Source: a virus. From it: a stretch of 23,739 bases of DNA. The stretch is taken from the IMG/VR virus record IMGVR_UViG_3300044630_008099, positions 1-23,739 of that record; one strand, given 5' to 3'. How positions within the stretch are numbered: the first letter of the stretch is position 1; each line of letters begins with the position of its first letter. This document shows, one piece after another, positions 5,326-21,739 of the stretch. Made by a program: the position numbers and the translations under genes. The notes under the pieces were generated by a model. That model ran no database searches and was not told the origin of the DNA. It saw only the letters and a program-made list of their open reading frames with translations.

Positions 5326-5349
5326 AGTATTTGAAGGAGGTCTTTACAT

Positions 5350-7740: not shown

Positions 7741-7746
7741 GATCTA

Positions 7747-9451: not shown

Positions 9452-10615
9452 ATGTCATTAATTAATCATATAGACGAAGGCCCAAATCACGGCGGCAAAT
9501 TAAATGATTTGTTATACTTTAAAGAATTTAAAACATTAGATGTTTTTGGTAAAACATTTTCAGTGTCATACAAAAACAGGAAAACATTTAACTCCTTAGA
9601 TGCTTTTTTTACAATAACACAACTAGAAAATCTTGAGCTTATTAGCAATTCTCAACCTTCAAATGAAGTCTTTATTGACGAAGATGTTGTGGTAATTCCC
9701 ATTGCGGGCAGCGAAATAGGATATTTTCATTTAATTTATAATGTTTTATCAGAGATTGAAATAATTAAATCTATGTTTCCAAGCATAAAAATTAAAATAC
9801 TAAACTTATGTGAAAAAGAAACATTTGCTTTTCTTATTGAAAAATTTAAAAAAACCGATGCTTTTAAGGTGTATGGAATTGAAGACTCTGACATAATTAA
9901 TTTTGAAGAAAATGATTTTATAAAAATTAAATCTTTATTTTTTATATACACAGAATATAACCCAATAGCTTCTAAAGTAGCAAGTCACAATTTTGATTAT
10001 AGTGGGGACAGGACAGGTAAAAAGCTCGTTTGGTCATACCTAATTGATAAACCAGTACGGAATAGATTTTTATTAAATGATCAAATTACAAATAACAGAA
10101 AAATTTTTTTAAGTGGAATGAAGAGCAATACAGTTAAAAGAGCTACGGCCAATCTTATTTACAAAAGAGTTTTTGGATATTCCTTGTCTTCAAAAGAAAC
10201 AAAATTTCTTGATAACATGAGGGTAGAAAACTATCCAGATTTTGTTGATAGGTTAATGACAGAATCAGAAGAGCTTAAGCTCGAAAAAATGTTTAAAGAA
10301 GCTGGTTACGAAATTATAGACCCAGAAGACTTGATAAGCATTTGTGATCAGGCTGCTCTTTTTGCTTCAGCAAGCCATATTGTTGGCCTAGCGGGGGCAT
10401 CTTTTATAAATTGTATTTTTTGTAAAAAAGATACAAAAGTTTTAATTTTAAATAGCTCAGACTCTTATTCATTTCCTCATAAAGAAATCGTAGCTTCTTT
10501 TGGACTTGATGTAAGCATTTCTCCAGTGCAAAAAACATGGAGAAATTATACTTACCCTGCAAAAATGATTTTTAACTTAGTGAAAAGGGATTTCCAGTCC
10601 TTTCTCCCCCTGTGA
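9452..10615 (+). CDS. GT61-like glycosyltransferase
   Basis: The protein has 387 residues. The family pattern of GT61 (DUF563) is visible: IGYFHLIYNVLSEIEII (89-105) contains the conserved H93 early in the domain. Near the end, EELKLEKMFKEAGYEII is followed by PEDLISICDQAALFASAS and HIVGLAGASFINCIFC (309-324), the consensus E..l...Gfe.i.pe.ls..eQ..lf..A..ivG..GA.l.N.iF. GT61 enzymes transfer xylose, GlcNAc or other sugars to glycans. The start has no ribosome site; an in-frame stop at 9419 excludes earlier starts. It is related to the minus-strand gene at 11380-12393. Very AT-rich. Confidence 0.75.
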   Translation: MSLINHIDEGPNHGGKLNDLLYFKEFKTLDVFGKTFSVSYKNRKTFNSLDAFFTITQLENLELISNSQPSNEVFIDEDVVVIPIAGSEIGYFHLIYNVLSEIEIIKSMFPSIKIKILNLCEKETFAFLIEKFKKTDAFKVYGIEDSDIINFEENDFIKIKSLFFIYTEYNPIASKVASHNFDYSGDRTGKKLVWSYLIDKPVRNRFLLNDQITNNRKIFLSGMKSNTVKRATANLIYKRVFGYSLSSKETKFLDNMRVENYPDFVDRLMTESEELKLEKMFKEAGYEIIDPEDLISICDQAALFASASHIVGLAGASFINCIFCKKDTKVLILNSSDSYSFPHKEIVASFGLDVSISPVQKTWRNYTYPAKMIFNLVKRDFQSFLPL

Positions 10616-10621
10616 TATAAT
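10613..10621 (+). promoter_or_regulatory. Extended -10 (TGATATAAT) giving a leaderless message
   Basis: The TGA is the stop codon of the GT61 gene and also the TGn of an extended -10. TATAAT (10616-10621) ends six bases before ATG 10628, and no Shine-Dalgarno sequence lies between, so transcription should begin at or next to the start codon. No good -35 is seen at 17 bases. Confidence 0.7.
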
Positions 10622-10627
10622 TAAATT

Positions 10628-11377
10628 ATGATAAACATTATGATTCCTATGGCTGGTCAGGGAAAAAGATTTTTAGACAAAGAAATTTTTGTTCCAAAGC
10701 CACTGGTTGTGGTAAAAGGGAAAACCCTTGCTGAACACTCAATTGACTCTATTAAAATTCCTGGTGCGATGTTTCATTTTATTACAAAAGGCTTTGATAA
10801 TAATTTTTATAATAAACAGCTTTCTATGATTTTTTCTGATAAGCTTGGAAACTCTTATAAAGAATATTCTATCAATATCAAACAGTATGGTGCTGCCCAT
10901 AGCTGTTTGTTTGCTGAGAGTACGTTTAAAGATAAGGGGCTTTCGGACATGCCACTAATTATTTTAAATTGCGATCAAATATTAAATTGGGATCCACAAG
11001 ATTTTTTAAATTTTATAGAAAAAAATGATCCAGATGGTGCTGTGATATTGTACAAGTCTGATGATCCTAAACATAGTTTTGCAAAAATAAATAAACGTGG
11101 AGAAATTTCTGAAATTATAGAAAAGGTTGCAATAAGTGATGACGCTTTGATAGGGGTTCATTATTGGAAAAAGGCGTCAGACTTTTTTGAGTCAGCCTCA
11201 CTCCTTTTTGATAAACAGTATTGGGGTTCTAGAGAGGCCTATGTGTCTGAAACTTATAATTTTTTAATTAAAAAAGGAAAAACGATTCTGCCGTATTATT
11301 TTGAGAATGACCAATACATTTCGCTAGGCACTCCAGAGGATATTGAAAAATATTTACAGAATTCAAATGAAAAATAA
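10628..11377 (+). CDS. Sugar-phosphate nucleotidyltransferase
   Basis: The protein has 249 residues. It opens INIMIPMAGQGKRF with the nucleotide-binding loop (G10, G12, R14), then PKPL (23-26), whose lysine contacts the nucleoside triphosphate. LNCDQI has D116 for the metal, EKVAISDDALIGVHYW (165-180), and SLGTPEDIEKYL closes the domain. This is the core of the RmlA/GlmU-N/MurB-type nucleotidyltransferase superfamily, which makes NDP-sugars or similar activated precursors. The substrate cannot be read off; related enzymes also make CDP-linked alcohols. It likely supplies the neighbouring transferases. It is predicted to be translated from a leaderless message. It ends two bases from the convergent GT61-like gene. 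Confidence 0.83.
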   Translation: MINIMIPMAGQGKRFLDKEIFVPKPLVVVKGKTLAEHSIDSIKIPGAMFHFITKGFDNNFYNKQLSMIFSDKLGNSYKEYSINIKQYGAAHSCLFAESTFKDKGLSDMPLIILNCDQILNWDPQDFLNFIEKNDPDGAVILYKSDDPKHSFAKINKRGEISEIIEKVAISDDALIGVHYWKKASDFFESASLLFDKQYWGSREAYVSETYNFLIKKGKTILPYYFENDQYISLGTPEDIEKYLQNSNEK

Positions 11378-11379
11378 AG

Positions 11380-12393
11380 CTATAGCAAAGTTGAATTTTT
11401 TAATAAAGACTCTTCAATTTCTTTAAATGAAAAAGTTTTTCTATTATGAGTTTCCCTAGGTAAGGCATAGCTAAGAGCTCTGCCTTTTTCATCATAGATT
11501 GTGGGGAATTCAGAATACTTTATCCCAGCAAACATACAGATATAGTCATACCATACCTGGTACTCATCATCTAAGTTAATTGCAATAATCTCAGACTCTT
11601 TCTTGCAAAAAATTGTATTTACAAGTCCAGAAGATTTTATTCCTGCAATTTTATAAGCCCCAGAATAAAGCTCAACCTGCTCCAAGAGTCCCAAATCTTC
11701 TGCCGCAATAATTTGATAGCCTTTATACTTAAAAAACTTTTCTAGCTCTATTTCATCGTTTTTAGAGATATATCTAAAGTCATCTTTATTTCTACCCTTT
11801 TGCTCATGGTGATTAAATCTAGATATAAATATTTTGAGGTCTGGATCTATTTTTGATTTTATATAGCCCTTAAACCTTGATTGCAATAAAGGATAGATTG
11901 TTTGTATATAAACTTTAAAATCTTTTTTGTTGTGCCAAGGATCAAAGAATTCTTTTACAAAAATGTTTGTAAATAAATAATTATGAGTAGACCAAATAAA
12001 GAATAAATTCTTAAAAACATATTTTTCTCCCGAAGCTACATTAAAAACATTGCTTTCTGGAATTGAATATACAGATGTTAAATCTTTTAGTATGCCATTT
12101 TTTTCTTTAGTGTGGTGCTCATCGGTTAAAACATATAGGTTTATTTCTGGGTCAAGCCTTTTTATAAACTCATATTGAGCCAGTTTGTCAAATATAAAAT
12201 GAAAGTGGGTATAGCCAGTAAGGTCTATAATAAAGGCTTTTTCTGAAATTGTTGACTTTCTTTTAAGAAAAGGGTTAAGATCGGGTCTAGATTTATTGTA
12301 AATTGAAAAATCTTTTACTTTGTTGAGAGGATATCCAAACCCAGGTATCTTCATTTTTTTAATTTTTTTATAATTACAAATAAATTCAGACAT
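11380..12393 (-). CDS. Second GT61-like glycosyltransferase
   Basis: I start at ATG 12393, nine bases after GGAG (12402-12405); a TTG at 12408 is weaker. The 337-residue protein has HFHFIFDKLAQYEFIKRL (63-80), LKIFISRFN (186-194, the typical nucleotide-site strand) and NDEIELEKFFKYKGYQII, then EDLGLLEQVELYSGA and YKIAGIKSSGLVNTIFCKK (247-265). The order and wording parallel the plus-strand GT61 gene at 9452, so the two are distant paralogues adding different residues. It is transcribed from the palindromic promoter at 12419-12434 shared with the HAD-cupin operon. Confidence 0.74.
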   Translation of the reverse strand: MSEFICNYKKIKKMKIPGFGYPLNKVKDFSIYNKSRPDLNPFLKRKSTISEKAFIIDLTGYTHFHFIFDKLAQYEFIKRLDPEINLYVLTDEHHTKEKNGILKDLTSVYSIPESNVFNVASGEKYVFKNLFFIWSTHNYLFTNIFVKEFFDPWHNKKDFKVYIQTIYPLLQSRFKGYIKSKIDPDLKIFISRFNHHEQKGRNKDDFRYISKNDEIELEKFFKYKGYQIIAAEDLGLLEQVELYSGAYKIAGIKSSGLVNTIFCKKESEIIAINLDDEYQVWYDYICMFAGIKYSEFPTIYDEKGRALSYALPRETHNRKTFSFKEIEESLLKNSTLL

Positions 12394-12418
12394 TGCCAGC
12401 TTCTCCAACTCATTAGTC

Positions 12419-12434
12419 TGCTATAATTATAGCA
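12419..12434. promoter_or_regulatory. Palindromic bidirectional promoter
   Basis: TGCTATAATTATAGCA is a perfect 16-base palindrome. On each strand it reads TGCTATAAT, a consensus extended -10 (plus TATAAT 12422-12427, minus TATAAT 12431-12426). Predicted starts are about 12434 (plus) and 12419 (minus). No convincing -35 exists on either side. The plus transcript reaches AAGGAG 12440-12445 and ATG 12459. The minus transcript reaches GGAG and ATG 12393. Confidence 0.75.
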
Positions 12435-12458
12435 TAGAGAAGGAGTATCTAAAAGCAG

Positions 12459-12866
12459 ATGAGCATAGAGATTGGAAAGCATAACGAATTTTATTTAGAC
12501 AAGCCAAAAACAATTTTTTGTGATATTGATGGAACAATTCTTAAACACACACATAAATTTAGCAAGCTAGACAGCCACCCACCAACAGCCCTTCCTGGGG
12601 TTATAGATAAGCTTGATGAGTGGGACTCTATTGGATATAAAATTATATTGGTAACAGCAAGAAAAGAATCTAGCAGAGAAATGACCGAAAGACACCTTAA
12701 AGACCTTGGAATCATGTGGGATCACTTAATTATGGGTGTTTCAAGTGGTCAAAGAATTTTAATTAATGATAAGTTAAAAAGTGAAGATCCCGATAGGGCC
12801 AAAGCTATTAATGTAGTTACTGATTCGGGTTTCGCTAATACTCACTGGGAAGATTTTGGGCTATGA
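12459..12866 (+). CDS. HAD-superfamily phosphatase
   Basis: The protein has 135 residues. Motif I is FCDIDGTIL with nucleophile D22 and acid D24. Motif II is ILVTARKES with T66. QRILINDKLKSEDPDRAKA supplies the C-terminal motif region with N103 and D104. It lacks a cap domain insertion, like small phosphatases of the KdsC or capsule-type family, which remove phosphate from sugar phosphates. The substrate is unknown. It is the first gene of a five-gene operon with ATGA overlaps, driven by the palindromic promoter. The distance from AAGGAG to ATG (13 bases) is long, so translation may be modest. Confidence 0.82.
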   Translation: MSIEIGKHNEFYLDKPKTIFCDIDGTILKHTHKFSKLDSHPPTALPGVIDKLDEWDSIGYKIILVTARKESSREMTERHLKDLGIMWDHLIMGVSSGQRILINDKLKSEDPDRAKAINVVTDSGFANTHWEDFGL

Positions 12867-13189
12867 TAACTGGAAATATTAATAATACCGTTGGCGGATG
12901 GTACATTGGCAATTTTGAAAAAGCGGTATATAAAACAAAAACATTTGAGGCATCTTATAAAAAACATCATAAAGGTGAAGTTTATGGATGGCATTATCAT
13001 CAACACCTAGATGAGATAAACTTTGTGGTATCTGGAAAAATTAAAATGCAGGGCGAAGTCTTCGGTCCTGGAGACATTTTTATTCTTGAGCCATATGATA
13101 TTGCTGATCCAGAGTTTCTTGAAGATTGCGAAATTATTTGTATAAAAGCACCCAACATAACTAATGATAAGATTGATCTAAAGCGATGA
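12863..13189 (+). CDS. Small single-domain cupin
   Basis: The protein has 108 residues. Cupin motif 1 is GWHYHQHLDEINFVVSGKI (42-60), with H44, H46 and E51 as likely metal ligands. Motif 2 is FGPGDIFILEPYDIAD (67-82), where the usual second histidine is replaced by an aspartate-containing turn. Cupins of this size include sugar isomerases/epimerases, dioxygenases and simple binding proteins; the sequence does not choose between them. Placement between a HAD phosphatase and a phosphodiesterase-like gene suggests a role in making or tailoring a phosphorylated sugar precursor. Both ends overlap neighbours by four bases (ATGA). Confidence 0.76.
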   Translation: MITGNINNTVGGWYIGNFEKAVYKTKTFEASYKKHHKGEVYGWHYHQHLDEINFVVSGKIKMQGEVFGPGDIFILEPYDIADPEFLEDCEIICIKAPNITNDKIDLKR

Positions 13190-13632
13190 ACCCAAAAGTC
13201 ATATCTCATCGTGGCAATCTTTATGGACCAGATAAAGAAAACGAAAACACACCATCACAAATATTGCTTGCTATTCAAAAAGGCTTTGACGTAGAAATAG
13301 ATTTTTGGGCAGAAGATAATAGGCTTTTTTTAGGACATGACTACCCAAAGCACGAGATCTCCATTAATTTTTTAAGAGATAATCAGAAATATCTTTGGAT
13401 ACATTGTAAAAGCCTAGAGGCTATCGATCTTTTAAAGCGTTTATTGCCAACTAGTAATTTTTTCTGGCACCAAAATGATGACTTTACTTTGACTAGTCTT
13501 GGCTATATTTGGACATATCCAGGAAAAGAAACAACTCAGTATTCTGTTATAGTAGATCTAACAGAATCTCCTAATACTAATATGGAGATTTTCGGTATTT
13601 GCACAGATTATCCAGAAAGAGTTTTGTTATGA
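13186..13632 (+). CDS. Compact glycerophosphodiester phosphodiesterase-like protein
   Basis: The protein has 148 residues. ISHRGN (H8, R9), ENENTPSQI, FDVEIDFW (E37, D39), LFLGHD (H51) and the closing ICTDYPERVL match the GDPD family, which hydrolyses glycerophosphodiesters with metal bound by the two acidic residues. The family usually spans 230-250 residues, so this is a short form: after the HD motif it moves quickly to LWIHCKS, standing where the ExK motif normally is, with H in place of E. It may be a minimal phosphodiesterase acting on a wall teichoic-acid-like or other phosphodiester glycan, or may have lost activity. Confidence 0.72.
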   Translation: MNPKVISHRGNLYGPDKENENTPSQILLAIQKGFDVEIDFWAEDNRLFLGHDYPKHEISINFLRDNQKYLWIHCKSLEAIDLLKRLLPTSNFFWHQNDDFTLTSLGYIWTYPGKETTQYSVIVDLTESPNTNMEIFGICTDYPERVLL

Positions 13633-14216
13633 ATAGAACAGAAATTTTTAAGAAAGTAAAAAATGCAAAAGCTAATGGGCAAATTCTTTTCTTGGGAAAA
13701 GTTTTTAAAGTTGTTCCAAACTGGGAAACTTTTTATAATATTTTTAAGCAAAACCTTGAATTAGGAGCAATAGATTTTTCTTCTCCAGGCAGCTTAGCAA
13801 TGGATAATTCAGAAGATTATACAAAAGATCTAGATTTAATAATCAATAACCTTGAAGCTTTTCACCCAGGAACAAAAATTGCTGCCCTGTCAATTGTGCA
13901 CTTTTTAAGTGCAAACGACAACGCAGTCCCAGAAGCCGCCAGAGCCTTTGCAGAAGACTTTATGAGTAATAACCCAATTAAGCTACCACCAGATTTTGAT
14001 TTCAATCTTTTTCAGCCCACAATTCACTCTGATCCTGTTGACGGATTTTATGTACAGTGTAAGGGGCAGACAATATGGAGGGCATATTACAAAAATAAAA
14101 CCGAAGAGTATTTAACAAATCCTGGGGACTTGCTTTATATTCCTAAAGGAATTGAGCATAGCGTTGAGTCTATGAATGTTCGTGCAGCAATATCTGTATC
14201 CTTTTTTGACGAGTAG
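13629..14216 (+). CDS. JmjC/cupin-like 2-oxoglutarate oxygenase
   Basis: I use ATG 13629, which overlaps the upstream stop (ATGA); an in-frame ATG at 13599 lies inside the previous gene. The 195-residue product has FQPTIHSDPVDGFYVQCKGQ (128-147) with H133-x-D135, IWRAYY, then NPGDLLYIPKGIEHSVES (164-181) with distal H177. This is the metal-binding arrangement of JmjC-type cupin hydroxylases (consensus H.D..D.f..Q..G.K.W...PGDlLYIP...H). The N-terminal 120 residues look helical and are not recognised. Likely targets are arginine, histidine or asparagine side chains of a protein; which protein is unknown. It is the third oxygenase type in the window. Confidence 0.78.
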   Translation: MNRTEIFKKVKNAKANGQILFLGKVFKVVPNWETFYNIFKQNLELGAIDFSSPGSLAMDNSEDYTKDLDLIINNLEAFHPGTKIAALSIVHFLSANDNAVPEAARAFAEDFMSNNPIKLPPDFDFNLFQPTIHSDPVDGFYVQCKGQTIWRAYYKNKTEEYLTNPGDLLYIPKGIEHSVESMNVRAAISVSFFDE

Positions 14217-14221
14217 CCATC

Positions 14222-14911
14222 ATGGATTTAGTTTATATTTGCGGACCTGGACACAATGAAGAGCTTCGATACTCTATTAGGTCTGCCGTTAAAAATTTAA
14301 AGTTTAATAATCTTTGGGTAGTTGGTGGAAAGCCAGATTGGTATGTAGGGAATCATTTAGAAGTTATTCAGAATAAGTCTAAGTATACAAATGCTCGGAA
14401 TAACCTCAGAGCTATTTGTAACTCCCAAGAAATATCAGAATCATTTATTTTAATGAATGATGATTTTTATATTATAAATAGAGTTAGCGATGTACCATAC
14501 ATGCATGGCGGCTTGCTTGCTGATAAAATAAAAAAATACGAAGATTTAACTGGTAACACCAGATATGTGTTAATGCTAAAAAGAACCCTATTAAGCTTAT
14601 CTCGCAGAATAATAAAAAAAGATGTTTTAGACTATGAGCTACATGTCCCAATGGTTATGGAAAAAGAAAAGCTTTTAGCTATAATAGAAAGTCCCGATTT
14701 GTGGAGGTCTAGATATGGAAATACCTTTAACGTTGGAGGCATAGAGATGGATGATGTAAAGGTATATTCCTTTGGGGCACTTGCTAAAAAATCTTACGAC
14801 ATAAATAATTTAAAATATGACTATTTATCTAGCAATAGTGATTCTTTTGAAATGATAAAGGATAAAATCCTAAGCGTTAGTTTTCCAGATAAAGTGGTTT
14901 ATGAAGCTTAA
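14222..14911 (+). CDS. Stealth-like sugar-phosphate transferase
   Basis: The protein has 229 residues. It opens MDLVYICGPGHNEELRYSIRSA; NLWVVGGKPDW (30-40) follows, then NNLRAICNSQ and ESFILMNDDFYII (73-85). ELHVPMVMEKEKLL (139-152) with H141 comes next. These correspond to the conserved regions of Stealth proteins (N.ELRYSLRS, F.y.NDDff, .H.P...), hexose-1-phosphate transferases that build phosphodiester-linked capsular polymers. The protein is shorter than full Stealth proteins, which have four conserved regions. It is the last gene of the HAD-cupin operon, five bases after the oxygenase. Its TAA stop shares TTAA with the stop of the convergent gene. Confidence 0.72.
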   Translation: MDLVYICGPGHNEELRYSIRSAVKNLKFNNLWVVGGKPDWYVGNHLEVIQNKSKYTNARNNLRAICNSQEISESFILMNDDFYIINRVSDVPYMHGGLLADKIKKYEDLTGNTRYVLMLKRTLLSLSRRIIKKDVLDYELHVPMVMEKEKLLAIIESPDLWRSRYGNTFNVGGIEMDDVKVYSFGALAKKSYDINNLKYDYLSSNSDSFEMIKDKILSVSFPDKVVYEA

Positions 14912-15957
14912 CGGTTTACTCTAGAAGCTCTTGCAACAGCTACCTGTCTTGCAGATCGATTCGCAGGCCTACGAACATTTTTAATAAACTCAGAAAATTT
15001 ATCTAGCTCTACAGCCTGTCGATCTTGTATCCATTCTGCTCTAGCCCTTGCTTTTTCACTATAGGAATTATAGTTATTTTCGATAAGCTTAATCCCCGCT
15101 GCAGCTTCAGCTATGCTAAGTGGATTAATTAATACCGCAGCATCCCCAATACCCTCTCTTACATGGGGAGTATCTACATGTACAGTTGGAATTCCATACC
15201 CTGCAGCCTCAATAGCTGACATTCCATAAGTTTCGTACATGGACGGCACCAAGAGAACCCTTGTTTGTTCTAAATATTTGTATACATCTTTTGGATCCAC
15301 CCTTGGATGTAACTCCACGTTTGGAAGCTTAGCAGCTTTTTCTTCCAAATCTGGTATGCCGTGAGTTGGCTCAGCAGGAGACCTAACAATAATAAACCTT
15401 TTATCTGGGTGCATTTCTGCTAAAGAAAGCACTACTTGAACCCCCTTGTTCCTTAAGGATGAAAGGCAGGTATAGGCATCTCCGTTAGTGCTAGTATTAG
15501 GTGGCAAATCACTAATCGGTGGGTGTAAAACAATTGCCCCAGGCTCTCCCCACTGCCTTGCAGAAGTTTCTGTATTATATACAGCGTAGTCTGCATAGCA
15601 GACTCCAGCTCGGATTCCCTTTCCGTATCTAGGCGGAGTATGAACGTTTACTATCGAGACCGCATTGGCCTCTTGTGCAGCTAAAACAGCTGGCAAGGAC
15701 AATTCATTTTGAGCAATAACCACCCTGGCATTAAAATCTTTAAGCTGCTTTGCAATGGGGCTAGGGTCTGCTTTTATGTCAAGAACATCTGGAGTATTTA
15801 TTTGAGTAACACGTATTCCGTCAATATAATACTCAGCCTGAGTGTTTGTTAGAACAACTCTCTCGCCTTTAACAGCCATCATTGATCTGTGAAGAGATAC
15901 TTCTCCTCCCATGTTCCAAAGAGGAGGATAGCCGTGAGATAAAGCCACAACAGTCAT
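14908..15957 (-). CDS. GT-B glycosyltransferase (GT4-like)
   Basis: The protein has 349 residues. The C-terminal donor-binding motif VPSMYETYGMSAIEAAGYG (237-255) with E242 and E250 is the EX7E signature of GT4-type retaining transferases. The N-terminal domain opens TVVALSHGYPPLWNMGGEVS with the GGxE acceptor loop. The Arg-rich tail (RRPANRSARQVAVARASRVNR-like, 329-349) is unusual. It overlaps the preceding minus gene by four bases. The region is much less AT-rich than its neighbours (hand count 15301-15360: 27 of 60 G+C), so it seems better adapted to the phage core than the cassette to its left. Confidence 0.88.
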   Translation of the reverse strand: MTVVALSHGYPPLWNMGGEVSLHRSMMAVKGERVVLTNTQAEYYIDGIRVTQINTPDVLDIKADPSPIAKQLKDFNARVVIAQNELSLPAVLAAQEANAVSIVNVHTPPRYGKGIRAGVCYADYAVYNTETSARQWGEPGAIVLHPPISDLPPNTSTNGDAYTCLSSLRNKGVQVVLSLAEMHPDKRFIIVRSPAEPTHGIPDLEEKAAKLPNVELHPRVDPKDVYKYLEQTRVLLVPSMYETYGMSAIEAAGYGIPTVHVDTPHVREGIGDAAVLINPLSIAEAAAGIKLIENNYNSYSEKARARAEWIQDRQAVELDKFSEFIKNVRRPANRSARQVAVARASRVNR

Positions 15958-16628
15958 CGATCAGCTAACAGTCTTTTAGCTTCTTGTAGCCCAGGACCAT
16001 CTCGCCACTCTTCAAATGCAATTCTATCTAGGTCACGTTTTATTTTATCGTTAGCTTCTTGATATGTCTGATCGTCTGGGGCTGCCTTATTCCAACGGTG
16101 TAAGTGACTAAGCTTTACATCTGGGTGGTAAATAAACTTTGTAAGCTTGCCAAGCTCTCTCCAGGCATTGTCTAGAAAAAGGTGTCGACTCGTTGGCATT
16201 CCTAGCCAGCCAAGTCTTTTATACATTTCTACTGGAACTACAACATGTGTAGGAAGATCTTGACCATGTAAATGCTCTAAGCCATCACTACCATAGGCAA
16301 CACCAAGCTCAGGTAAAGATTTTACCATAATCTCATCCCAACCTTTTGTTTCTGGAACAACGTCGTCTCCAAGTATCGCAACATGAGTAAAGTCTTCTTT
16401 AGAGGCTATCTCTGCTAACTCATTCAAAGAAGCTGTAAAAAATATTCTTGGGCCAACAATATATCTAACTTTTTCTAAAGCTGGATAAATGTGATCATCA
16501 TCTTCGTCTATTCTTGCAAGAATTTCATAATCTAATTTGCAGGTTTCTTTTGCTGCTTTAGCAAGTCTTTCAAGATTATGAGGTCTGCCACGTGTAGGGA
16601 CTGTAATTGCTAATTTAAAATTGCTCAT
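15954..16628 (-). CDS. GT-A glycosyltransferase (GT2-like)
   Basis: The protein has 224 residues. KLAITVPTRGRPHNLERL (5-22) is the standard GT-A opening with the PTRGRP loop. EILARIDEDDDH (35-46) carries acidic residues for nucleotide-sugar binding, and VAILGDDVVPETKGWDE (83-99) holds the DD metal site. Family-2 type enzymes of this length are frequent in actinophages, where some decorate virion proteins or host surface glycans. The start overlaps the membrane-protein gene stop (four bases), and its own stop overlaps the GT-B start, so the three genes form one minus-strand operon. Confidence 0.85.
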   Translation of the reverse strand: MSNFKLAITVPTRGRPHNLERLAKAAKETCKLDYEILARIDEDDDHIYPALEKVRYIVGPRIFFTASLNELAEIASKEDFTHVAILGDDVVPETKGWDEIMVKSLPELGVAYGSDGLEHLHGQDLPTHVVVPVEMYKRLGWLGMPTSRHLFLDNAWRELGKLTKFIYHPDVKLSHLHRWNKAAPDDQTYQEANDKIKRDLDRIAFEEWRDGPGLQEAKRLLADR

Positions 16629-17215
16629 AGCTTAATAGCCTTAGCAAACACAACTCTAGATGCCATCTTAGAGGCAGCAATAATTGCGATAGGGGCAGCA
16701 ATGCTTAGAACGCTTCCAGCCCACATCCGTGGCTCAAGATAGTTCCACTCCCAAAAATCAAAGGTATGAAAAGCATTAGCAAGAACGGCAATACCACCAA
16801 ACACAACCATTCCAAGAATTGCTCCAAAAGTTTTTTCGGGCTGACCAGATTCATTCATTCTAGAAGCAAGAACAAGGTAAGCAACCAGGAACAGTAGATA
16901 CATAAGCTCGATAAAGAAGAAGAATAGTCCTGCCATCCAAGCTTGGGATAGTCCAACAAATTGTGCTACAGCTGTAATTCCATTAAAGGAAACAATTGCA
17001 GAAGAAATAAAGGCAAAACCAATACCAATAAGCCAAGACCAAAGTATAAGTTTTTGATCAACCTGAATTCTTGGAGCACGTTTTGATTCTTGAAGTTCGT
17101 ATCTTTGACGTTTAGTGTCTTCTACACGTCTAACCGTGGCCTCTACTCCACCTGCATAATTTGCTCTTTCAGCAAGCATTTTTTGTCTATCTCTAAATGA
17201 CCTTGGAATATTCAT
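16625..17215 (-). CDS. Four-helix integral membrane protein
   Basis: The protein has 196 residues. The first 50 are charged and soluble (ERANYAGGVEATVRRVEDTK), followed by four hydrophobic segments at about 57-77 (ILWSWLIGIGFAFISSAIVS), 90-117 (AWMAGLFFFFIELMYLLFL and on), 131-148 and 166-186. The layout resembles small actinobacterial four-helix proteins such as DUF2637, but I cannot confirm the match. As the promoter-proximal gene of the glycosyltransferase operon it might anchor or flip a lipid-linked sugar; that is inference only. Confidence 0.78.
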   Translation of the reverse strand: MNIPRSFRDRQKMLAERANYAGGVEATVRRVEDTKRQRYELQESKRAPRIQVDQKLILWSWLIGIGFAFISSAIVSFNGITAVAQFVGLSQAWMAGLFFFFIELMYLLFLVAYLVLASRMNESGQPEKTFGAILGMVVFGGIAVLANAFHTFDFWEWNYLEPRMWAGSVLSIAAPIAIIAASKMASRVVFAKAIKL

Positions 17216-17224
17216 AATGCATCC

Positions 17225-17253
17225 ATTATACCACTAAAAAGAGTTTTGTTCAA
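17225..17253 (-). promoter_or_regulatory. Promoter of the minus glycosyltransferase operon
   Basis: Read on the minus strand: TTGAAC (17253-17248), 17 bases, TATAAT (17230-17225), preceded by TGG. The start codon ATG 17215 lies nine bases after the -10, so the 5' leader would be about three bases, close to leaderless. Confidence 0.75.
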
Positions 17254-17257
17254 CTTA

Positions 17258-17266
17258 TGCTATAAT
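17258..17266 (+). promoter_or_regulatory. Extended -10 promoter of the Hsp20 gene
   Basis: TGCTATAAT with no clear -35, diverging from the minus promoter about 30 bases away. The predicted 5' leader of about 50 bases contains the palindrome CCCAATTGGG (17278-17287) before AAGGAG (17310-17315). No CIRCE or HAIR heat-shock operator is visible. Confidence 0.65.
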
Positions 17267-17324
17267 ATATTTACCTGCCCAATTGGGGGGTATTTAACTC
17301 GCTTAACACAAGGAGATGATATAT

Positions 17325-17714
17325 ATGGTTATTACAACACCATTTGGAGGACTTGGTCTAGATATTGACAAGTTCTTTAGCACAACACCAGCAACAAACA
17401 CCTACCCACCATACAACGTTGTTAGGATTAACGACGACAAGATCGTAATGGAGTTTGCGGTAGCTGGATTCAAAAAGGATGAGATCAGCATTACTGCTGA
17501 AAAAAATGTCCTATCAATAAAAGCAGAAAAGCCAGACGCTGACGATAAGAAATACCTACATAAAGGTATTGCTGCTCGTAGGTTTACTCGCTCATTCTCG
17601 CTACCAGAATACTATGAAGTAGATTCCGCTGGATTTGAAGACGGTATTCTATACATTAATTTGGTAAGAAACATTCCAGAAGAGAAAAAGCCAAAGTCGA
17701 TTAAAATCAGTTAA
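17325..17714 (+). CDS. Hsp20 small heat-shock protein (IbpA-like)
   Basis: I choose ATG 17325, nine bases after AGGAG; the ATG at 17316 abuts the ribosome site. The 129-residue protein has PPYNVVRINDDKIVMEFAVA, GFKKDEISITAEKNVLSIKA and GIAARRFTRSFSLPEYYEV, then AGFEDGILYINLVRNIPEEK and the C-terminal IKIS (the I-x-I/V motif). This block order and wording follow IbpA (YPPYNVE..., GIAERNFERKFQL, VNGLLYIDL.RVIPE). Small Hsps hold unfolding proteins; phages of the T4-like group often carry one, probably aiding virion protein assembly or infection stress. Confidence 0.93.
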   Translation: MVITTPFGGLGLDIDKFFSTTPATNTYPPYNVVRINDDKIVMEFAVAGFKKDEISITAEKNVLSIKAEKPDADDKKYLHKGIAARRFTRSFSLPEYYEVDSAGFEDGILYINLVRNIPEEKKPKSIKIS

Positions 17715-17726
17715 AAACGATGATAT

Positions 17727-17853
17727 CCTATAGGTAGCTTAAGGTTTCCGAAAGGCCGCTACCTTAGGAGACAACCTGGGCATGTTGATAAAAGGCCTAT
17801 CTTAATAAATAAAAGGCTTTCTCTTGCTTAAGATTTTTTTAATCTTGCGTAAG
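17727..17853. other. Structured non-coding stretch between convergent genes; candidate ncRNA/terminator
   Basis: The 168-base gap 17715-17882 holds several folds. AGGTAGC (17732-17738) pairs with GCTACCT (17758-17764) around an inner CC-GAAA-GG hairpin, with GG/CC stacking. CAAC (17772-17775) pairs with GTTG (17784-17787). A long hairpin runs 17823-17835 with 17841-17853, one mismatch and wobbles, and a TTTTT loop. GC content in the first part is higher than in the surrounding AT-rich spacer. No promoter is certain. It may be the Hsp20 3' end with a terminator-like stem, or a small RNA. Confidence 0.45.
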
Positions 17854-17882
17854 CGATACCATTTAGCCAATTTTTTAAACAT

Positions 17883-18842
17883 TTAAAATACCAACCTTGA
17901 GCTAAACTCTTTTTCTGTTTTAATTCTTTCTAAAAATTTTGTCATCCAATATTCGTGCTCTAGCTGGCCAAGATGCCCATCACGTCTGCAAAGATCATCA
18001 ACTTCAAATTTTCCTGTCGGCCTTGCCTTATTTATAAATTTTACAGATTCTTCTATAGTTAAATGAACATAGTTTTTTGAATTTTGAAAAGTATTATGGT
18101 TAATGCTTTCTGGATAGTCCCAACATCCCCAGAGCATCTTTACCCCTTTTGATTCACAAAATTTTTGAAACATCTTCCAGCCAAAATAAAAATTAATAAA
18201 GTCTTTTTTATGAGCTTCTGGAGTTACAATTCGAGGTGTCAAAAAATTGTCTTGACCAACTTTTGTGTAATTTTGCCAATAACTTTGCGTCTTTAATGGC
18301 CTACTCTGCACATGGTACCACATTCTTTCTTTGGGGCTCCAGTCCCAAAATCTTGCAATATTTGGTAGCATAACAAAAAAGAATTCTGGAAAGCCATACT
18401 TTTCCCCATAAATCATAAAATTAACAATAATCTTTTGCCAACCATGTCCAGCTTTTGCTAAAGAAAAAAATCCAGATGTATCAGTATGCTGGGCAATCTG
18501 ATTATATAGCTTTTTTGTCCAAATTGTTTCTAGGGGAGATCCGACACCTTCCGAATTAGAACAACCGCTAAATAGGATATGGATTCCTGTGTGAGTTTTT
18601 GTAAAGTCTTCGCTTCTAAAACCATCATGGTTAAAATTATAAACTATTCTTCCATCATCAACCGTGTCTGGCCCCTCTGTTGGCAAAATAGTCAAAGTTT
18701 TTTTATAGCTTCCGCTTTCATGTACGAAGGATTCGCTCCAGGGGTTTACAAACTCATTTAAAAAAAGATCTGGAGCACAGTTAAATATTGAGTTAGACCT
18801 ACTGTCTTTTAAATTAATAATAAAATCTAAAGGCTTATTCAC
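17883..18842 (-). CDS. SGNH/GDSL-type hydrolase, leaderless GTG start
   Basis: I start at GTG 18842, six bases after a TGCTATACT extended -10 lying inside the longer frame; the upstream ATG 18866 would precede that promoter. The 319-residue protein has ILFSGCSNSEGVGS (block I; serine at about residue 95), SLAKAGHGW (block II glycine), MLPNIARFW (block III asparagine) and CRRDGHLGQLEHEYW (block V, D288 and H290). SGNH enzymes act as esterases, often removing acetyl groups from carbohydrates. It is very AT-rich like the glycan cassette, and could deacetylate a host or virion glycan. No signal peptide is visible. Confidence 0.78.
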   Translation of the reverse strand: MNKPLDFIINLKDSRSNSIFNCAPDLFLNEFVNPWSESFVHESGSYKKTLTILPTEGPDTVDDGRIVYNFNHDGFRSEDFTKTHTGIHILFSGCSNSEGVGSPLETIWTKKLYNQIAQHTDTSGFFSLAKAGHGWQKIIVNFMIYGEKYGFPEFFFVMLPNIARFWDWSPKERMWYHVQSRPLKTQSYWQNYTKVGQDNFLTPRIVTPEAHKKDFINFYFGWKMFQKFCESKGVKMLWGCWDYPESINHNTFQNSKNYVHLTIEESVKFINKARPTGKFEVDDLCRRDGHLGQLEHEYWMTKFLERIKTEKEFSSRLVF

Positions 18843-18848
18843 TATAAA

Positions 18849-18857
18849 AGTATAGCA
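18849..18857 (-). promoter_or_regulatory. Extended -10 (TGCTATACT) for the SGNH gene
   Basis: On the minus strand TGC (18857-18855) precedes TATACT (18854-18849), which ends six bases before GTG 18842. There is no Shine-Dalgarno sequence between, so a leaderless message is predicted. Confidence 0.65.
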
Positions 18858-18865
18858 CAAAGACA

Positions 18866-18874
18866 TGGTATAAT
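18866..18874 (+). promoter_or_regulatory. Extended -10 (TGGTATAAT) for the 383-residue protein gene
   Basis: TATAAT (18869-18874) preceded by TGG ends six bases before ATG 18881. No ribosome-binding site lies between, so the message is predicted leaderless. It stands back to back with the minus promoter at 18849-18857. Confidence 0.75.
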
Positions 18875-18880
18875 GATTTT

Positions 18881-20032
18881 ATGCCATACCACGTTGGAGA
18901 AAAGGGATCGTACGGTTGCTCAGGCTACCCTGCCCTTAAAGATGATGGAACCGTAATGGGTTGCCACACTACAGCTGAAGAAGCTGCTAATCAAATTTAT
19001 GCGATTAACGAGTCTGAAGGAAATATCGAGGCTGGTGTTGGTATTAAAAATCCAGAAGACTGGCCTATGGACAAAGTAGAGACTGACAGAAACGGTATGG
19101 GCTCCAGGATTGGTCAGCCAGAACCAGCTTCCAAGAAACCCTCTGCACTAAAAGATCCTAAGAAAAAACCAAAAACTAGAGTTGGTGGTGCTGGCGGAGA
19201 CTCTTCTGGAGCAATCTCTACAACTAATTCTGGCACATCTATGGGAACAAAGGCAGACGAAAAAGTTGCCCCGTGTTGGGATGGCTATACTCAAAGGGGC
19301 ATGAAGCCAGGAGACAATGGACGAATGGTTCCAAACTGTATTCCAGTATCAAAAGCAGATGCTACATTAGTCGAAGGTGATTTTGTAGTGGCAATGACGA
19401 CTGAAGGTGCAATCGTTGGTCAGGTTGAACACATTATGCTTGAGGGTGGAACATATGGTCAGCCTGGAAATCCATATTCGGTAGAATCAACTCCTGAAAA
19501 CCCAGCGGTAGCTGTTAGAATCCTTGAAGAAGACGACGGCGTTTACTACTACACACCTTACTCAATTGGTGCACTAAGATCTGATGTTACAAGAATTGAC
19601 ATGCCAAACATTAGTATGGAAGATTATGAGGATGATGATTATGATGAATACATGGACAAAGCTGAAGGCTACAGCCCTCCTGCTGGGGCTAGGAGTGCTG
19701 CTCGTCGTGCTATCAAGTTCAAAGAAGACGGAAAGGCCACAGGGGCTGGAACTGCAGTTGGATGGACTAGAGCTAGACAATTGGCTAATGGAGAGACACT
19801 CTCGCTAAGCACAGTAAAGCGTATGTACTCTTACTTCTCTCGTCACGAAGTAGATAAGAAGGGTAAGGACTGGGGAAACCAAGCCAACCCTTCTAACGGA
19901 TATATCATGTGGCTAGCGTGGGGTGGAGATGCGGGATACTCTTGGTCAAGACGTATTGCTCAGCGTGAAGCAGACAAAGCACTATTTTCTGATTTTGGAA
20001 AAGACTATACAACAGCAAAAAGATTAATCTAG
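18881..20032 (+). CDS. Multidomain phage protein with actinophage N-terminal module
   Basis: The protein has 383 residues. Part 1 (1-45) is MPYHVGEKGSYGCSGYPALK...GCHTTAEEAANQIYAI, a short cysteine-bearing module seen at the N-termini of actinophage head-maturation proteins. Part 2 (46-160) is a low-complexity linker with PCWDGYTQRGMKPG. Part 3 (162-240) is beta-rich, LVEGDFVVAMTTEGAIVGQV to YYYTPYSIGALRSDVTRI. An acidic stretch (247-257) leads to part 4 (265-365), a helical domain SPPAGARSAARRAIKFKEDG...TRARQLANGETLSLSTVKRM...MWLAWGGDAGYSWSRR. Part 4 recurs in phage proteins but has no function known to me. Its arginines suggest nucleic-acid contact. No protease motif is evident. Confidence 0.75.
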   Translation: MPYHVGEKGSYGCSGYPALKDDGTVMGCHTTAEEAANQIYAINESEGNIEAGVGIKNPEDWPMDKVETDRNGMGSRIGQPEPASKKPSALKDPKKKPKTRVGGAGGDSSGAISTTNSGTSMGTKADEKVAPCWDGYTQRGMKPGDNGRMVPNCIPVSKADATLVEGDFVVAMTTEGAIVGQVEHIMLEGGTYGQPGNPYSVESTPENPAVAVRILEEDDGVYYYTPYSIGALRSDVTRIDMPNISMEDYEDDDYDEYMDKAEGYSPPAGARSAARRAIKFKEDGKATGAGTAVGWTRARQLANGETLSLSTVKRMYSYFSRHEVDKKGKDWGNQANPSNGYIMWLAWGGDAGYSWSRRIAQREADKALFSDFGKDYTTAKRLI

Positions 20033-20048
20033 AAATAGATTTTATTTT
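20026..20048 (+). terminator. Intrinsic terminator-like hairpin
   Basis: AATCTA (20026-20031) and TAGATT (20036-20041) form a stem with a GAAA tetraloop, followed by TTATTTT. It overlaps the stop codon (TAG 20030-20032) and ends inside the convergent nuclease gene. The stem is short and AT-rich, so efficiency may be low. Confidence 0.5.
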
Positions 20049-20458
20049 GTATTCATATTAATCAGATATCTTACACTATCAATAAAACCAGCTCTTACAG
20101 CAGTTTTTAACATCTTATGAGAAGATGATCCATACTTAGGCAAATCTGAAAAGTAAACTATATACTGAGTTTCTGGATACCTAGATTTTATTAGTGCAGC
20201 GTTAGCAATAGCTTTCTTAACGTTATCAGTTCTTTTAGCCCCTGGCCTTTTGCCTTCACCTTGCAGCCCACCTTTTGCTTCAACATAAACTTGGGTACCA
20301 CGAAAGTCATAAGCAAAATCAACCTCACAGCCAACATCTTTAACAACAACATTCTTCTCAATGTTCTGTTGTCCAAACCTGCCAAGGTCTTCAAGAACCT
20401 GTGATTCAAAAAGATCTCCAGAATGTTTGGACTCTGCTTGGAAATTAGTGATAGTCAT
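20042..20458 (-). CDS. PD-(D/E)XK nuclease-fold protein
   Basis: The protein has 138 residues. The catalytic core is GCEVDFAYDFRGTQVYVEAKGG: D47 and E60-A-K62 form the D...ExK signature, preceded by E18 in the first helix (LFESQVLEDL), as in restriction-type and Holliday-junction-type nucleases. Basic residues follow (GKRPGAKRTDNVKKA), suiting DNA contact. It may cut foreign or host DNA or act in recombination; a DNA-cutting activity is likely but the target is unknown. It is predicted to be expressed as a leaderless message from a consensus promoter. It stops ten bases past the convergent gene. Confidence 0.8.
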   Translation of the reverse strand: MTITNFQAESKHSGDLFESQVLEDLGRFGQQNIEKNVVVKDVGCEVDFAYDFRGTQVYVEAKGGLQGEGKRPGAKRTDNVKKAIANAALIKSRYPETQYIVYFSDLPKYGSSSHKMLKTAVRAGFIDSVRYLINMNTK

Positions 20459-20464
20459 AATAAA

Positions 20465-20493
20465 ATGATACCAGAATTTCAGGGGTATGTCAA
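20465..20493 (-). promoter_or_regulatory. Consensus promoter of the nuclease gene (leaderless)
   Basis: On the minus strand TTGACA (20493-20488), 17 bases, TATCAT (20470-20465), then six bases to ATG 20458. No Shine-Dalgarno sequence is present, so the start codon coincides with the predicted transcription start. Confidence 0.85.
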
Positions 20494-20595
20494 GCTAATT
20501 ATAGGACAATAACAATAGTCTTTATACTTAATAATCTCAAAGTATAGCTCTATCCCTATATCGTGTATTTCTCCACAACTACATTTATAAACCAC
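20479..20595 (-). CDS. Small CxC...CxC protein (38 residues, tentative)
   Basis: A reading frame from GTG 20595 encodes 38 residues containing VYKCSCGEIHDIGIEL and YKDYCYCPIIS. C5 and C7 pair with C28 and C30 as a possible zinc knuckle. The longer upstream part of the frame runs into the divergent gene at 20639, so I use GTG. An extended -10 (TGGTAGAAT, 20609-20601) ends five bases before it, which would give a near-leaderless message. Its end overlaps the nuclease promoter. The paired cysteines argue for coding, but 38 residues is short and chance is not excluded. Confidence 0.4.
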   Translation of the reverse strand: MVYKCSCGEIHDIGIELYFEIIKYKDYCYCPIISLTYP

Positions 20596-20600
20596 AACCA

Positions 20601-20609
20601 ATTCTACCA
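20601..20609 (-). promoter_or_regulatory. Possible extended -10 (TGGTAGAAT) for the CxC small gene
   Basis: Minus-strand TGG (20609-20607) then TAGAAT (20606-20601), five bases before GTG 20595. No -35 is found at 17 bases. It lies close to the divergent -10 at 20627-20632. Confidence 0.35.
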
Positions 20610-20623
20610 ATGCTTTATGAATC

Positions 20624-20632
20624 TGATATACT
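20624..20632 (+). promoter_or_regulatory. Extended -10 (TGATATACT) for the 52-residue gene
   Basis: TATACT (20627-20632) preceded by TGA ends six bases before ATG 20639, without any Shine-Dalgarno sequence. A leaderless message is predicted. Confidence 0.7.
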
Positions 20633-20638
20633 TTAGGT

Positions 20639-20797
20639 ATGGACCTAGAAAAAGAGATTGATGCTATACTATTTGAACTAATAAAAGACATTAAGTTATA
20701 TAAAATTGATAGTGATAATACTGTTATGGATGTTGAGTATCAAAAATATACCGCTCAGATTCTAAGGGTATTTATGAACTACCTAGCAGAAGAGTAG
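20639..20797 (+). CDS. Small acidic helical protein (52 residues)
   Basis: ATG 20639 to TAG 20795-20797 encodes MDLEKEIDAILFELIKDIKL, a region with YKIDSD, then YQKYTAQILRVFMNYLAEE. It is almost wholly amphipathic helix with no membrane segment and no recognised domain. The exact six-base spacing from a -10 element to the ATG, the lack of an alternative frame and its continuation to the next consensus promoter four bases after the stop support it as real. Function is unknown; it may be a small regulatory or adaptor protein of the early genes. Confidence 0.62.
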   Translation: MDLEKEIDAILFELIKDIKLYKIDSDNTVMDVEYQKYTAQILRVFMNYLAEE

Positions 20798-20800
20798 TCC

Positions 20801-20829
20801 TTGACAATGTCTAGATTAAAGGCTATAAT
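20801..20829 (+). promoter_or_regulatory. Perfect consensus promoter (TTGACA-N17-TATAAT), leaderless
   Basis: TTGACA (20801-20806) and TATAAT (20824-20829) match consensus exactly at 17-base spacing. The -10 ends six bases before ATG 20836, without a ribosome site. This is the strongest promoter in the window by sequence. Confidence 0.9.
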
Positions 20830-20835
20830 GGTTGT

Positions 20836-21087
20836 ATGGCACAAATAGATAGGGACCAAGCTCTCCAAAAGCTTATCGAAGAAGTTGTAGAAGATGATAT
20901 GTTTAACGATGACAGCTTCTTAGATGACTATGATGACTACAATCTTGGATACCAGGCTGGAACTTTAGATGAGCGTGAGAGAATTTTGCAGGGTATCCAG
21001 AAGCTAGAGGATCAGTCCCATGCAACAAGAACTCCTATATACCAAGATACATTGTTTGACAAGATACGGAAGATTGTGGGTAAATAA
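20836..21087 (+). CDS. Acidic unknown protein
   Basis: The protein has 83 residues. A strongly acidic segment (EEVVEDDMFNDDSFLDDYDDYN, residues 16-37, written here without spacing of its charge clusters) is followed by a helical region TLDERERILQGIQKLEDQ. The C-terminus is basic, FDKIRKIVGK. No family is recognised; proteins with this charge profile in phages sometimes mimic DNA or bind host RNA polymerase, but there is no direct sign of it. It has the best promoter in the window, so it is probably made early or abundantly. It overlaps the next start in TAATG. Confidence 0.75.
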   Translation: MAQIDRDQALQKLIEEVVEDDMFNDDSFLDDYDDYNLGYQAGTLDERERILQGIQKLEDQSHATRTPIYQDTLFDKIRKIVGK

Positions 21088-21423: not shown

Positions 21424-21452
21424 TTGACATCCTTTAGCATCCGCTGTATAAT
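21424..21452 (+). promoter_or_regulatory. Consensus promoter (TTGACA-N17-TATAAT)
   Basis: TTGACA (21424-21429) and TATAAT (21447-21452) at 17 bases. Unlike the leaderless sites, this message has a leader of about 26 bases with AAGGAG (21475-21480) before ATG 21485. Confidence 0.88.
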
Positions 21453-21484
21453 GATACATAAGATTTAACCAACAAGGAGAACAA

Positions 21485-21739
21485 ATGAAAAACGTTTATA
21501 AGAGCATTGTTGTTGCTGTAGTATTTGGAAACATTATTGCTTTCCCAGTAGTAGCTTACAGCTTTCCGTGGGAGACCTATCTAATTGATCCAACACCATA
21601 TTACATTGTTCAGTCAGGTTCCCTTGGATTGCTTATTGCAGCCTGTATTTTTGTCTATGAATGGGCTAGATATTCAGAGAAACCTTGGCTAAAAAAGGTC
21701 ACTGGATTGAAGCTAAAAACAAGAAATAAAACTAAGTAA
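21485..21739 (+). CDS. Small two-helix membrane protein
   Basis: The protein has 84 residues. Hydrophobic segments lie at about 8-25 (VVAVVFGNIIAFPVVAYS) and 43-60 (QSGSLGLLIAACIFVYEW); the linker SFPWETYLIDPTPYY is aromatic. The C-terminus is strongly basic (KKVTGLKLKTRNKTK). The layout of two helices plus a basic tail would also fit a holin or antiholin, and it lies next to two exported wall hydrolases, so it is an alternative lysis candidate to the protein at 9106. The proline-rich linker is longer than in most class II holins. Its own consensus promoter indicates separate control. Confidence 0.72.
   Translation: MKNVYKSIVVAVVFGNIIAFPVVAYSFPWETYLIDPTPYYIVQSGSLGLLIAACIFVYEWARYSEKPWLKKVTGLKLKTRNKTK

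Follow-up and report, generated by a model that had tools for sequence, protein, structure and literature searches.

Leaderless genes predicted under extended -10 promoters in a probable actinobacteriophage sequence and its relatives

Six genes in a viral DNA stretch of 23,739 nucleotides (IMG/VR record IMGVR_UViG_3300044630_008099, hereafter the window) are probably leaderless genes under extended -10 promoters, as in actinobacteria, and the division into leaderless and leadered genes would set protein amounts. The comparison with relatives supports the leaderless architecture through a very strong peak in the spacing between -10 hexamer and start codon.

Predicted leaderless starts in the window

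All six sites were checked letter by letter, and at each the -10 hexamer ends exactly six bases before the codon. On the plus strand, TGA-TATAAT (10616-10621)-N6-ATG 10628 (10613..10630) opens a nucleotidyltransferase-like gene (10628-11377), TGG-TATAAT (18869-18874)-N6-ATG 18881 (18866..18883) the gene of a 383-aa protein (phrog_2859), TGA-TATACT (20627-20632)-N6-ATG 20639 (20624..20641) that of a 52-aa protein, and TTGACA (20801-20806)-N17-TATAAT (20824-20829)-N6-ATG 20836 (20801..20838) that of an 83-aa protein. On the minus strand, TGC-TATACT (18849-18854)-N6-GTG 18842 (18840..18857) precedes the gene of a 319-aa protein without assigned function (17883-18842), and TTGACA (20488-20493)-N17-TATCAT (20465-20470)-N6-ATG 20458 (20456..20493) that of a 138-aa protein. 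TGn stands directly 5' of the hexamer at five of the six starts, the exception being 20836, and TTGACA lies at 17 bp from the -10 for 20836 and 20458. No Shine-Dalgarno (SD) match of at least five bases at a usable distance was found before any of the six, the longest SD-like stretch being AAGG, 13 bases before 20836. The original prediction had described these starts in the same terms, and the reading of all six confirmed it.

The starts at 18842 (minus) and 18881 (plus) form a divergent pair in which, with a 17-bp spacer, each -10 occupies the -35 position of the other. An ATG at 18866 is an alternative possible start of the 18842 reading frame. A near-leaderless start, with a predicted leader of 0-3 nt, is found on the minus strand, where TATAAT lies nine bases before ATG 17215 (17213..17230).

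The signature is unevenly kept in the relatives of these genes. It was found in one of two members of the 10628 family, one of five for 18842, two of nine for 18881 and one of four for 20458, and is thus absent from most relatives' copies at three of the window starts (18881, 18842 and 20458). The single relative copy of 20639 (G001_020) is leaderless, and that of 20836 (G001_019) has 45 upstream bases identical as printed.

Two leadered genes on the plus strand served for comparison. TATAAT lies 24 nt upstream of ATG 5350, with AAGGAGGT before the codon (5320..5352), and 32 nt upstream of ATG 21485, with AAGGAG before the codon (21447..21487); the start at 17325 also has an AAGGAG leader. The earlier description of 5350, 17325 and 21485 as leadered structural and lysis genes stands as regards their leaders, but the labels of the first two were corrected. 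The product of 5350 is an M23 peptidase, whose best PHROG is endolysin and which also matches tape-measure and minor-head profiles bearing an M23-type domain, and that of 17325 is an Hsp20. The subset of window proteins that was scanned yielded no portal, capsid or terminase, nor any other protein clearly belonging to head or tail. In some Roseobacter and Synechococcus phages, part of genes annotated as major capsid is similar to the C-terminal domain of the 18881 protein.

Host and relatives

The host is probably an actinobacterium, as the original prediction had implied. The window carries a WhiB-like gene (7408..7740, plus strand), an actinobacterial host marker; WhiB is also present in all 11 relatives tested and in the Streptomyces phage LukeCage and is absent from T4, and such genes suggest actinobacterial hosts. 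The relatives' capsid protein resembles that of Streptomyces phages (about 45% identity over 77% of the protein). A search for near-identical phages returned 49 records, and all of the 20 matches listed fall at tRNA genes. The single genome_contigs relative of the 18881 protein lies on a Burkholderiaceae MAG contig and is matched over residues 266-355 only.

Homologous capsid and portal genes in a syntenic structural module are seen in the relatives; no structural module was recognised among the scanned window proteins. The Stanwilliamsviridae phage LukeCage has a homologous capsid protein and shares the relatives' order portal-protease-capsid-major tail-chaperone. The gene before the portal is of leaderless type in BillNye, of the same family (TACAAT-N6-ATG), and in LukeCage (TATGAT-N6-ATG, from an unannotated in-frame ATG). 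The LukeCage chaperone gene, gp58, has a leader and SD, whereas that of the metagenomic relatives is leaderless.

Spacing of the -10 hexamer

A strong -10 at spacing six was found in 6 of 40 window genes in our own gene set, against a mean of 0.37 genes and a maximum of 2 at the remaining spacings (six and seven excluded). The Poisson probability of this excess is about 3e-6; correcting for 61 spacings raises it to about 2e-4. In eight large relatives, spacing six occurs in 107 of 1161 genes and spacing seven in 29, with a mean of 10.4 and a maximum of 21 elsewhere. Genes in the relatives were called with our own simple caller, whose start choice seeks the motif; counts were therefore always set against other spacings treated alike. 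Of the 136 leaderless calls in the relatives, about 20 are attributable to chance, and three genes of G001 are counted twice because that genome has a terminal repeat. Each large genome has 10-21 such calls, for a chance expectation of two or three. The original prediction had suggested scanning the complete phage genome for hexamers at this distance; the peak at six was seen in the window and, sharply, in its relatives.

The peak was also seen when a fixed word was counted. In 58 non-redundant related loci (80 minus 22 redundant ones), TATAAT-N6-ATG followed by an open reading frame of at least 60 codons occurs 168 times, the N7 form 42 times, and other spacings 0-21 times. Rearranged hexamers in the same loci gave no peak at six or seven (ATTATA at most 15, TTAATA at most 13, AATATT at most 19). 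The exception among them, TAATAT, peaks with 42 at spacing 4, which was taken as TATAATAT overlapping real sites. The stricter TGNTATAMT-N6-ATG occurs 77 times in the 897 kb of the eight relatives, where N11 gives 2 and a mirrored control 1. Six non-actinobacterial phages (1130 kb) have 8 at N6 and 8 at N11, so that the strict motif is about twelve times rarer there. No spacing peak was found in the 98 of 169 kb of T4 scanned (35% GC), and LukeCage has 12 at spacing six versus about 2.

Genes predicted to be leaderless in the relatives

For three genes, the best 80 of more than 500 relatives each were compared; near-identical upstream regions were collapsed, which kept 29, 35 and 29, and two of the 80 loci for the gene before the portal were excluded because the match did not start at residue 1. 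In these sets, the gene before the portal has the leaderless architecture in all 35 diverged upstream regions, at spacing seven in 34, and a one-base leader is therefore allowed. The tail assembly chaperone is strictly leaderless in 21 of 29 and near-leaderless in the remainder, where a -10-like hexamer lies about 8-9 bases away (8/29). The same distance was found in five of eight head-protease genes, so the predicted leader of both extends up to 3 nt. An SD of five bases precedes none of the 35 and none of the 29, respectively, for the gene before the portal and the chaperone. The major capsid gene is leaderless in 0/29 and has an SD in 29/29.

Among the eight large relatives, the chaperone and the gene before the portal are of leaderless type in every one, and a baseplate-wedge-like protein in seven, the eighth being near-leaderless. 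The genes for the major capsid and the major tail protein have leaders in 8/8, and no leaderless member was found for the major capsid, major tail, terminase or UvsX-like recombinase (0/8 each). The proposal that structural genes make up the leadered class is contradicted in the relatives by these assembly genes.

In 8/8 large relatives, the major tail gene is separated from the chaperone promoter by a terminator-like hairpin with a T run; four of the eight were folded, with z of -4.5 to -5.5. A general association of terminators with leaderless genes was considered and rejected. Terminators precede 17 of the 66 leaderless genes whose upstream gap is at least 25 bases (50 with smaller gaps were left out), versus 15 of 108 leadered genes with a promoter, with 14/330 and 13/540 in the respective shuffled controls. 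Eight of the 17 belong to the chaperone family, and the chaperone case alone therefore stands.

Promoter type and comparison with known systems

The logo of 108 spacing-six sites has T67 G81 n before the hexamer and neither a -35 nor an SD. The promoters thus belong to the extended -10 class (TGnTATAAT) and lack a conserved -35, and no position upstream of TGn is conserved in these sites. The term "regulon" used at the outset is not supported, since what the sites have in common is an ordinary extended -10, and no sign of timed expression was seen.

In the work of Zheng et al. (2011, PMC3160421), leaderless genes are recognised by TANNNT some 12 bp ahead of the start and average 19.2% of genes in Actinobacteria; for Mycobacterium, about 14% is given (PMC7148126). 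TANNNT at this distance, counted from its first T, is present at all six window starts and forms a sharp peak in the relatives. As far as the available text of these sources goes, motif, distance (first T at -12) and SD absence are the same here, and the share of genes is similar (an excess of about 10%). The phages differ in their low-GC genomes, fuller TATAAT and strong TGn, and their leaderless genes are predicted from sequence.

In phages, the literature searched contains leaderless expression only as a few predicted promoters. Those of the cluster O mycobacteriophage Corndog (PL1, PR2 and PL2; PMC4351075) and of Adephagia (P90; PMC11373665) are, in the accessible parts of these articles, SigA-like with a +1 that coincides with the initial base of the start codon, as predicted here, and Corndog PL1 and PR2 are divergent, as are 18842 and 18881. 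Three and one are named there; here, each large genome has 10-21 calls, which are conserved gene by gene between diverged phages. Leaderless initiation was also proposed, in the portion available, for hidden HNH genes of mycobacteriophages (PMC11855218). In PMC10586113, PMC10793310, PMC11636230 and PMC6678273, "leaderless" occurs in reference titles alone.

Proposed mechanism and alternatives

The usual distance from -10 to +1 is such that spacing six places +1 on the start codon purine. A primary-sigma-type extended -10 promoter, for which a -35 is unnecessary, ends six bases before the codon, and transcription would therefore start on the codon's A or G. The host's sigma factor presumably reads these promoters, and the ribosome would initiate on a message that lacks a 5' leader, in actinobacterial fashion. 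In this phage group, the device may mark the first genes of transcription units and is retained at particular genes. Assembly genes of presumed low copy number (such as the chaperone and the gene before the portal) are of leaderless type, and those of the bulk virion proteins (major capsid, major tail) are leadered with a strong SD. The division resembles an adjustment of expression level, gene by gene, more than one of timing, a reading based on a handful of genes with known role.

Several alternatives were weighed. The window's GC content is only 36.6%, and an AT-rich genome is rich in TATAAT-like words, but chance is refuted at the group level by T4, of similar GC, by the rearranged hexamers, and by the off-spacing and mirrored controls, which are near zero in the relatives, N11 being equal to N6 in the six other phages; it can be practically dismissed. 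Messages with leaders of 1-3 nt and ordinary SD-independent initiation would account for spacings seven to nine, including the gene before the portal, but the sharpest peak is at six (107 vs 29 at seven); this reading is rather improbable.

It is somewhat less probable still that a phage-encoded sigma factor rather than the host's reads the promoters, which would make a true phage regulon. A sigma-70 factor is encoded by the cultured Planktophila phages E7 and F5, according to the available part of PMC10202952, and weak sub-cut-off matches to Sigma70_r4 were found in G006 and G008. Against it, the motif is no more than an ordinary extended -10, and the 14 records searched, of uncertain completeness, gave no match to Sigma70_r2 and none above cut-off to Sigma70_r4. 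This rival was kept because the search is insensitive to divergent sigma factors: it missed T4 gp55, annotated as a sigma factor in its record. A timed regulon, with early leaderless and late leadered genes switched as ribosomes or initiation factors change, appears the least plausible of the biological alternatives. Long stretches of some relatives have few leaderless sites, and the recognisable signature-bearing window gene, the nucleotidyltransferase, is non-structural. Nevertheless, virion assembly genes are leaderless in 8/8 large relatives, the capsid, tail, terminase and recombinase genes alike have no leaderless member, and the logo has no additional motif. An early/late split by position was likewise rejected: sites are thin in parts of some genomes yet present inside the structural module.

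Within the preferred reading of leaderless genes under extended -10 promoters, a conserved device for stoichiometry is a tentative possibility. Inside a single structural module, a major tail gene with leader and strong SD would be followed by a terminator abutting the extended -10 promoter of the leaderless, low-copy chaperone, the gene before the portal would have remained leaderless through to the Streptomyces phages, and divergent pairs might add mutually exclusive firing. Closely set divergent pairs occur in the window, G003 and G008, their start codons being separated by 36-43 bp.

Significance

In actinobacterial hosts, leaderless expression is a familiar phenomenon. The present phage group has about a tenth of its genes predicted as leaderless, with the same genes fixed over large divergence. 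The motif may aid annotation, as it suggests starts missing in records, e.g., LukeCage gp47. The leaderless chaperone and the leadered major tail protein would offer matched pairs for asking what benefit leaderless initiation brings.

Spacing between -10 hexamers and start codons

A -10 hexamer ending exactly six bases before the start codon, the spacing at which a leaderless mRNA is predicted, had been claimed for six window genes. All six read as claimed: 10628, 18842 (minus strand, GTG), 18881, 20458 (minus strand), 20639 and 20836. Within the window gene set, a strong -10 hexamer occurs at this spacing in 6 of 40 genes, and the other spacings have a mean of 0.37 and a maximum of 2.

Relatives were collected with the 18881 protein as query (best 80 of 591). 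Twelve records behind them, which are metagenomic and may be incomplete, were scanned for patterns, and the complete sequence was read for eight, each 103-125 kb long. Across 58 non-redundant related loci (950 kb), TATAAT-N6-ATG opening an ORF of 60 codons or more was counted 168 times and the N7 form 42 times; TATAAT at other spacings before ATG gave 0 to 21. Rearranged words reached at most 15 (ATTATA), 13 (TTAATA) and 19 (AATATT) at any spacing. The word TAATAT was counted 42 times at spacing four, which is taken as TATAATAT overlapping real sites.

Because orthologs of the query are part of the 58-locus set, a genome-wide count was also made in the eight large relatives. It placed 107 of 1161 genes at spacing six and 29 at spacing seven, with a mean of 10.4 and a maximum of 21 elsewhere; of the count at each spacing, about 10 genes are expected by chance. 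The excess over other spacings amounts to about 115 genes (about 10%). Gene calls were our own, and three genes of the relative G001 were counted twice due to its terminal repeat. Positions 1-8500 of that record are identical to 116024-124523, so its two ends form a direct terminal repeat of 8.5 kb or more.

The spacing peak was not found in T4 (98 of 169 kb, similar GC). In the Streptomyces phage LukeCage (49% GC), 12 hexamers stand at spacing six vs about 2 elsewhere. The eight relatives (897 kb) contain 77 matches to the strict motif TGNTATAMT-N6-ATG, with one site in the G001 repeat counted twice; the window has three, LukeCage four, the Streptomyces phage BillNye one and Propionibacterium phage PA6 none. 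Eight matches occur in six phages infecting other hosts (T4, SPO1, P-SSM2, phiKZ, K and HTVC008M; 1130 kb). With N11 as a control, TGNTATAMT was matched twice in the eight relatives and eight times in the six other phages.

Host and gene content

The window (23,739 bases of an IMG/VR virus record, GC 36.6%) carries three tRNA genes. The window, all 11 relatives tested and LukeCage carry a WhiB-like gene; the same search found none in T4, and among 14 control genomes only Corynebacterium glutamicum matched. Based on this distribution, an actinobacterial host of the window phage is likely. For the major capsid protein of one large relative, the closest matches come from Stanwilliamsviridae that infect Streptomyces, with about 45% identity over 77% of its length.

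The window also has three 2OG-Fe(II) oxygenase- or JmjC/cupin-like genes (4607-5305, 7983-8612, 13599-14216), several glycosyltransferases, and an Hsp20 small heat-shock protein gene (17316-17714) with a Shine-Dalgarno (SD) sequence and a likely long leader. The sole genome_contigs relative of the 18881 protein (18881-20032) lies on a Burkholderiaceae MAG contig and covers the C-terminal domain only. Roseobacter, Synechococcus and Vibrio phages have a similar domain in genes whose annotation is major capsid or coil-containing protein.

Promoter form and sigma factor

TG precedes the hexamer in 70 of 108 distinct spacing-six sites; taken singly, the first position is T in 67% and the second G in 81%. 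A conserved -35 element was not found among these sites, and the six bases ahead of the codon are AT-rich and without SD. Conservation is higher at a few positions upstream of the 29 spacing-seven sites, which may reflect the common ancestry of one family. The median upstream gap is 50 bases for leaderless genes, 7 for SD-only genes and 65 for genes with both promoter and SD, and divergent arrangement is found in 26 of 142 leaderless genes vs 19 of 566. On these figures, leaderless genes come first in their transcription units.

The start codons of the divergent genes 18842 and 18881 are 39 bases apart. From the coordinates, given a 17-bp spacer, each -10 falls at the other's -35 position; both promoters have TGn, and thus neither should need a -35. 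Similarly tight pairs occur in the relatives G008 (36 bases) and G003 (43 bases). Nine records hold 42 divergent pairs; both genes are leaderless in six of these, and in three of the six the start codons are this close.

The simplest reading is that the host primary sigma factor recognises these promoters. A phage-encoded factor could read them instead; the search for one found Sigma70 region 2 in none of the 14 records and region 4 nowhere above the cut-off. This negative is weak, since the same search misses T4 gp55, an annotated sigma factor. Because of this insensitivity, a phage factor is rated slightly more likely than at first, though still improbable, and leaderless starts on extended -10 promoters read by the host factor slightly less so, though still quite probable. 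We infer both the transcription start points and the leaderless translation of these genes.

Gene families with predicted leaderless starts

In certain gene families, the leaderless state is fixed. For the gene before portal, it is seen in 8/8 large relatives and 35/35 diverged upstreams of the wider set, with spacing seven in 34 of the 35. Its BillNye homolog agrees (TACAAT-N6-ATG). In the LukeCage homolog gp47, TATGAT-N6-ATG (24243-24258) is found at an ATG in the same frame, 15 bases upstream of the annotated start, which may be too far downstream; this alternative was picked after the motif was seen. The tail assembly chaperone, a homolog of LukeCage gp58, is leaderless in 8/8 large relatives and 21/29 diverged upstreams; in the remaining eight, the printed sequences as read by eye show a hexamer resembling a -10 about 8-9 bases away. 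The LukeCage chaperone itself has a leader with SD. A baseplate-wedge-like protein is leaderless in 7/8 (one near-leaderless), a small protein of unknown function with one or two copies in 13/16 (three near-leaderless), a gene shortly after a tail protein in 4/8 (four near-leaderless), and the head maturation protease in 2/8 (five near-leaderless).

The major capsid protein is leaderless in 0/29 and has SD in 29/29; the major tail gene is likewise leadered, with SD, in 8/8. The proposed assignment of structural genes to the leadered class does not hold in the relatives, as the chaperone and the gene before portal are leaderless in 8/8. With leaderless assembly genes beside leadered capsid and major tail genes, the split is therefore not one of non-structural vs structural. 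The window genes are less constant, the copies in relatives being leaderless in 2/9 for 18881, 1/5 for 18842, 1/4 for 20458, 1/2 for 10628, and 1/1 each for 20639 and 20836.

All eight large relatives have GAGGAAAC in the major tail protein leader, right after the predicted start point (about 6300-6360 in G004), and the reverse complement GTTTCCTC at the protease gene end, within the 110 bases ahead of the capsid gene.

Known systems and possible role

Leaderless genes are of a known kind. Zheng et al. (2011; PMC3160421) recognise leaderless genes by a TANNNT lying about 12 bp upstream of the start and give an average leaderless share of 19.2% of genes in Actinobacteria. Three promoters, two of them divergent, are predicted leaderless in cluster O mycobacteriophages (PMC4351075), as is one at Adephagia gene 90 (PMC11373665), and a leaderless mode of initiation was proposed for hidden mycobacteriophage HNH genes (PMC11855218). 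A genome-wide leaderless account for a phage group was not found in searches of open-licence PubMed Central papers; within that literature, neither how widespread leaderless starts are in this phage group nor how conserved they are gene by gene was found described.

In 8/8 large relatives, the stretch that separates the major tail gene from the leaderless chaperone promoter contains a GC-rich hairpin with a T run; folding of four of the eight gave z-scores of -4.5 to -5.5. This arrangement suggests that the heavily used tail transcript would end at the hairpin and that the separate leaderless promoter would provide a smaller chaperone supply. According to PMC7148126, leaderless reporter constructs in Mycobacterium smegmatis yielded lower protein and mRNA levels than leadered ones, and the protein-to-mRNA relation in M. 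tuberculosis data was the same whatever the leader status. A reading in which the split between leaderless and leadered genes would set the amounts of their products fits this, without being proven.
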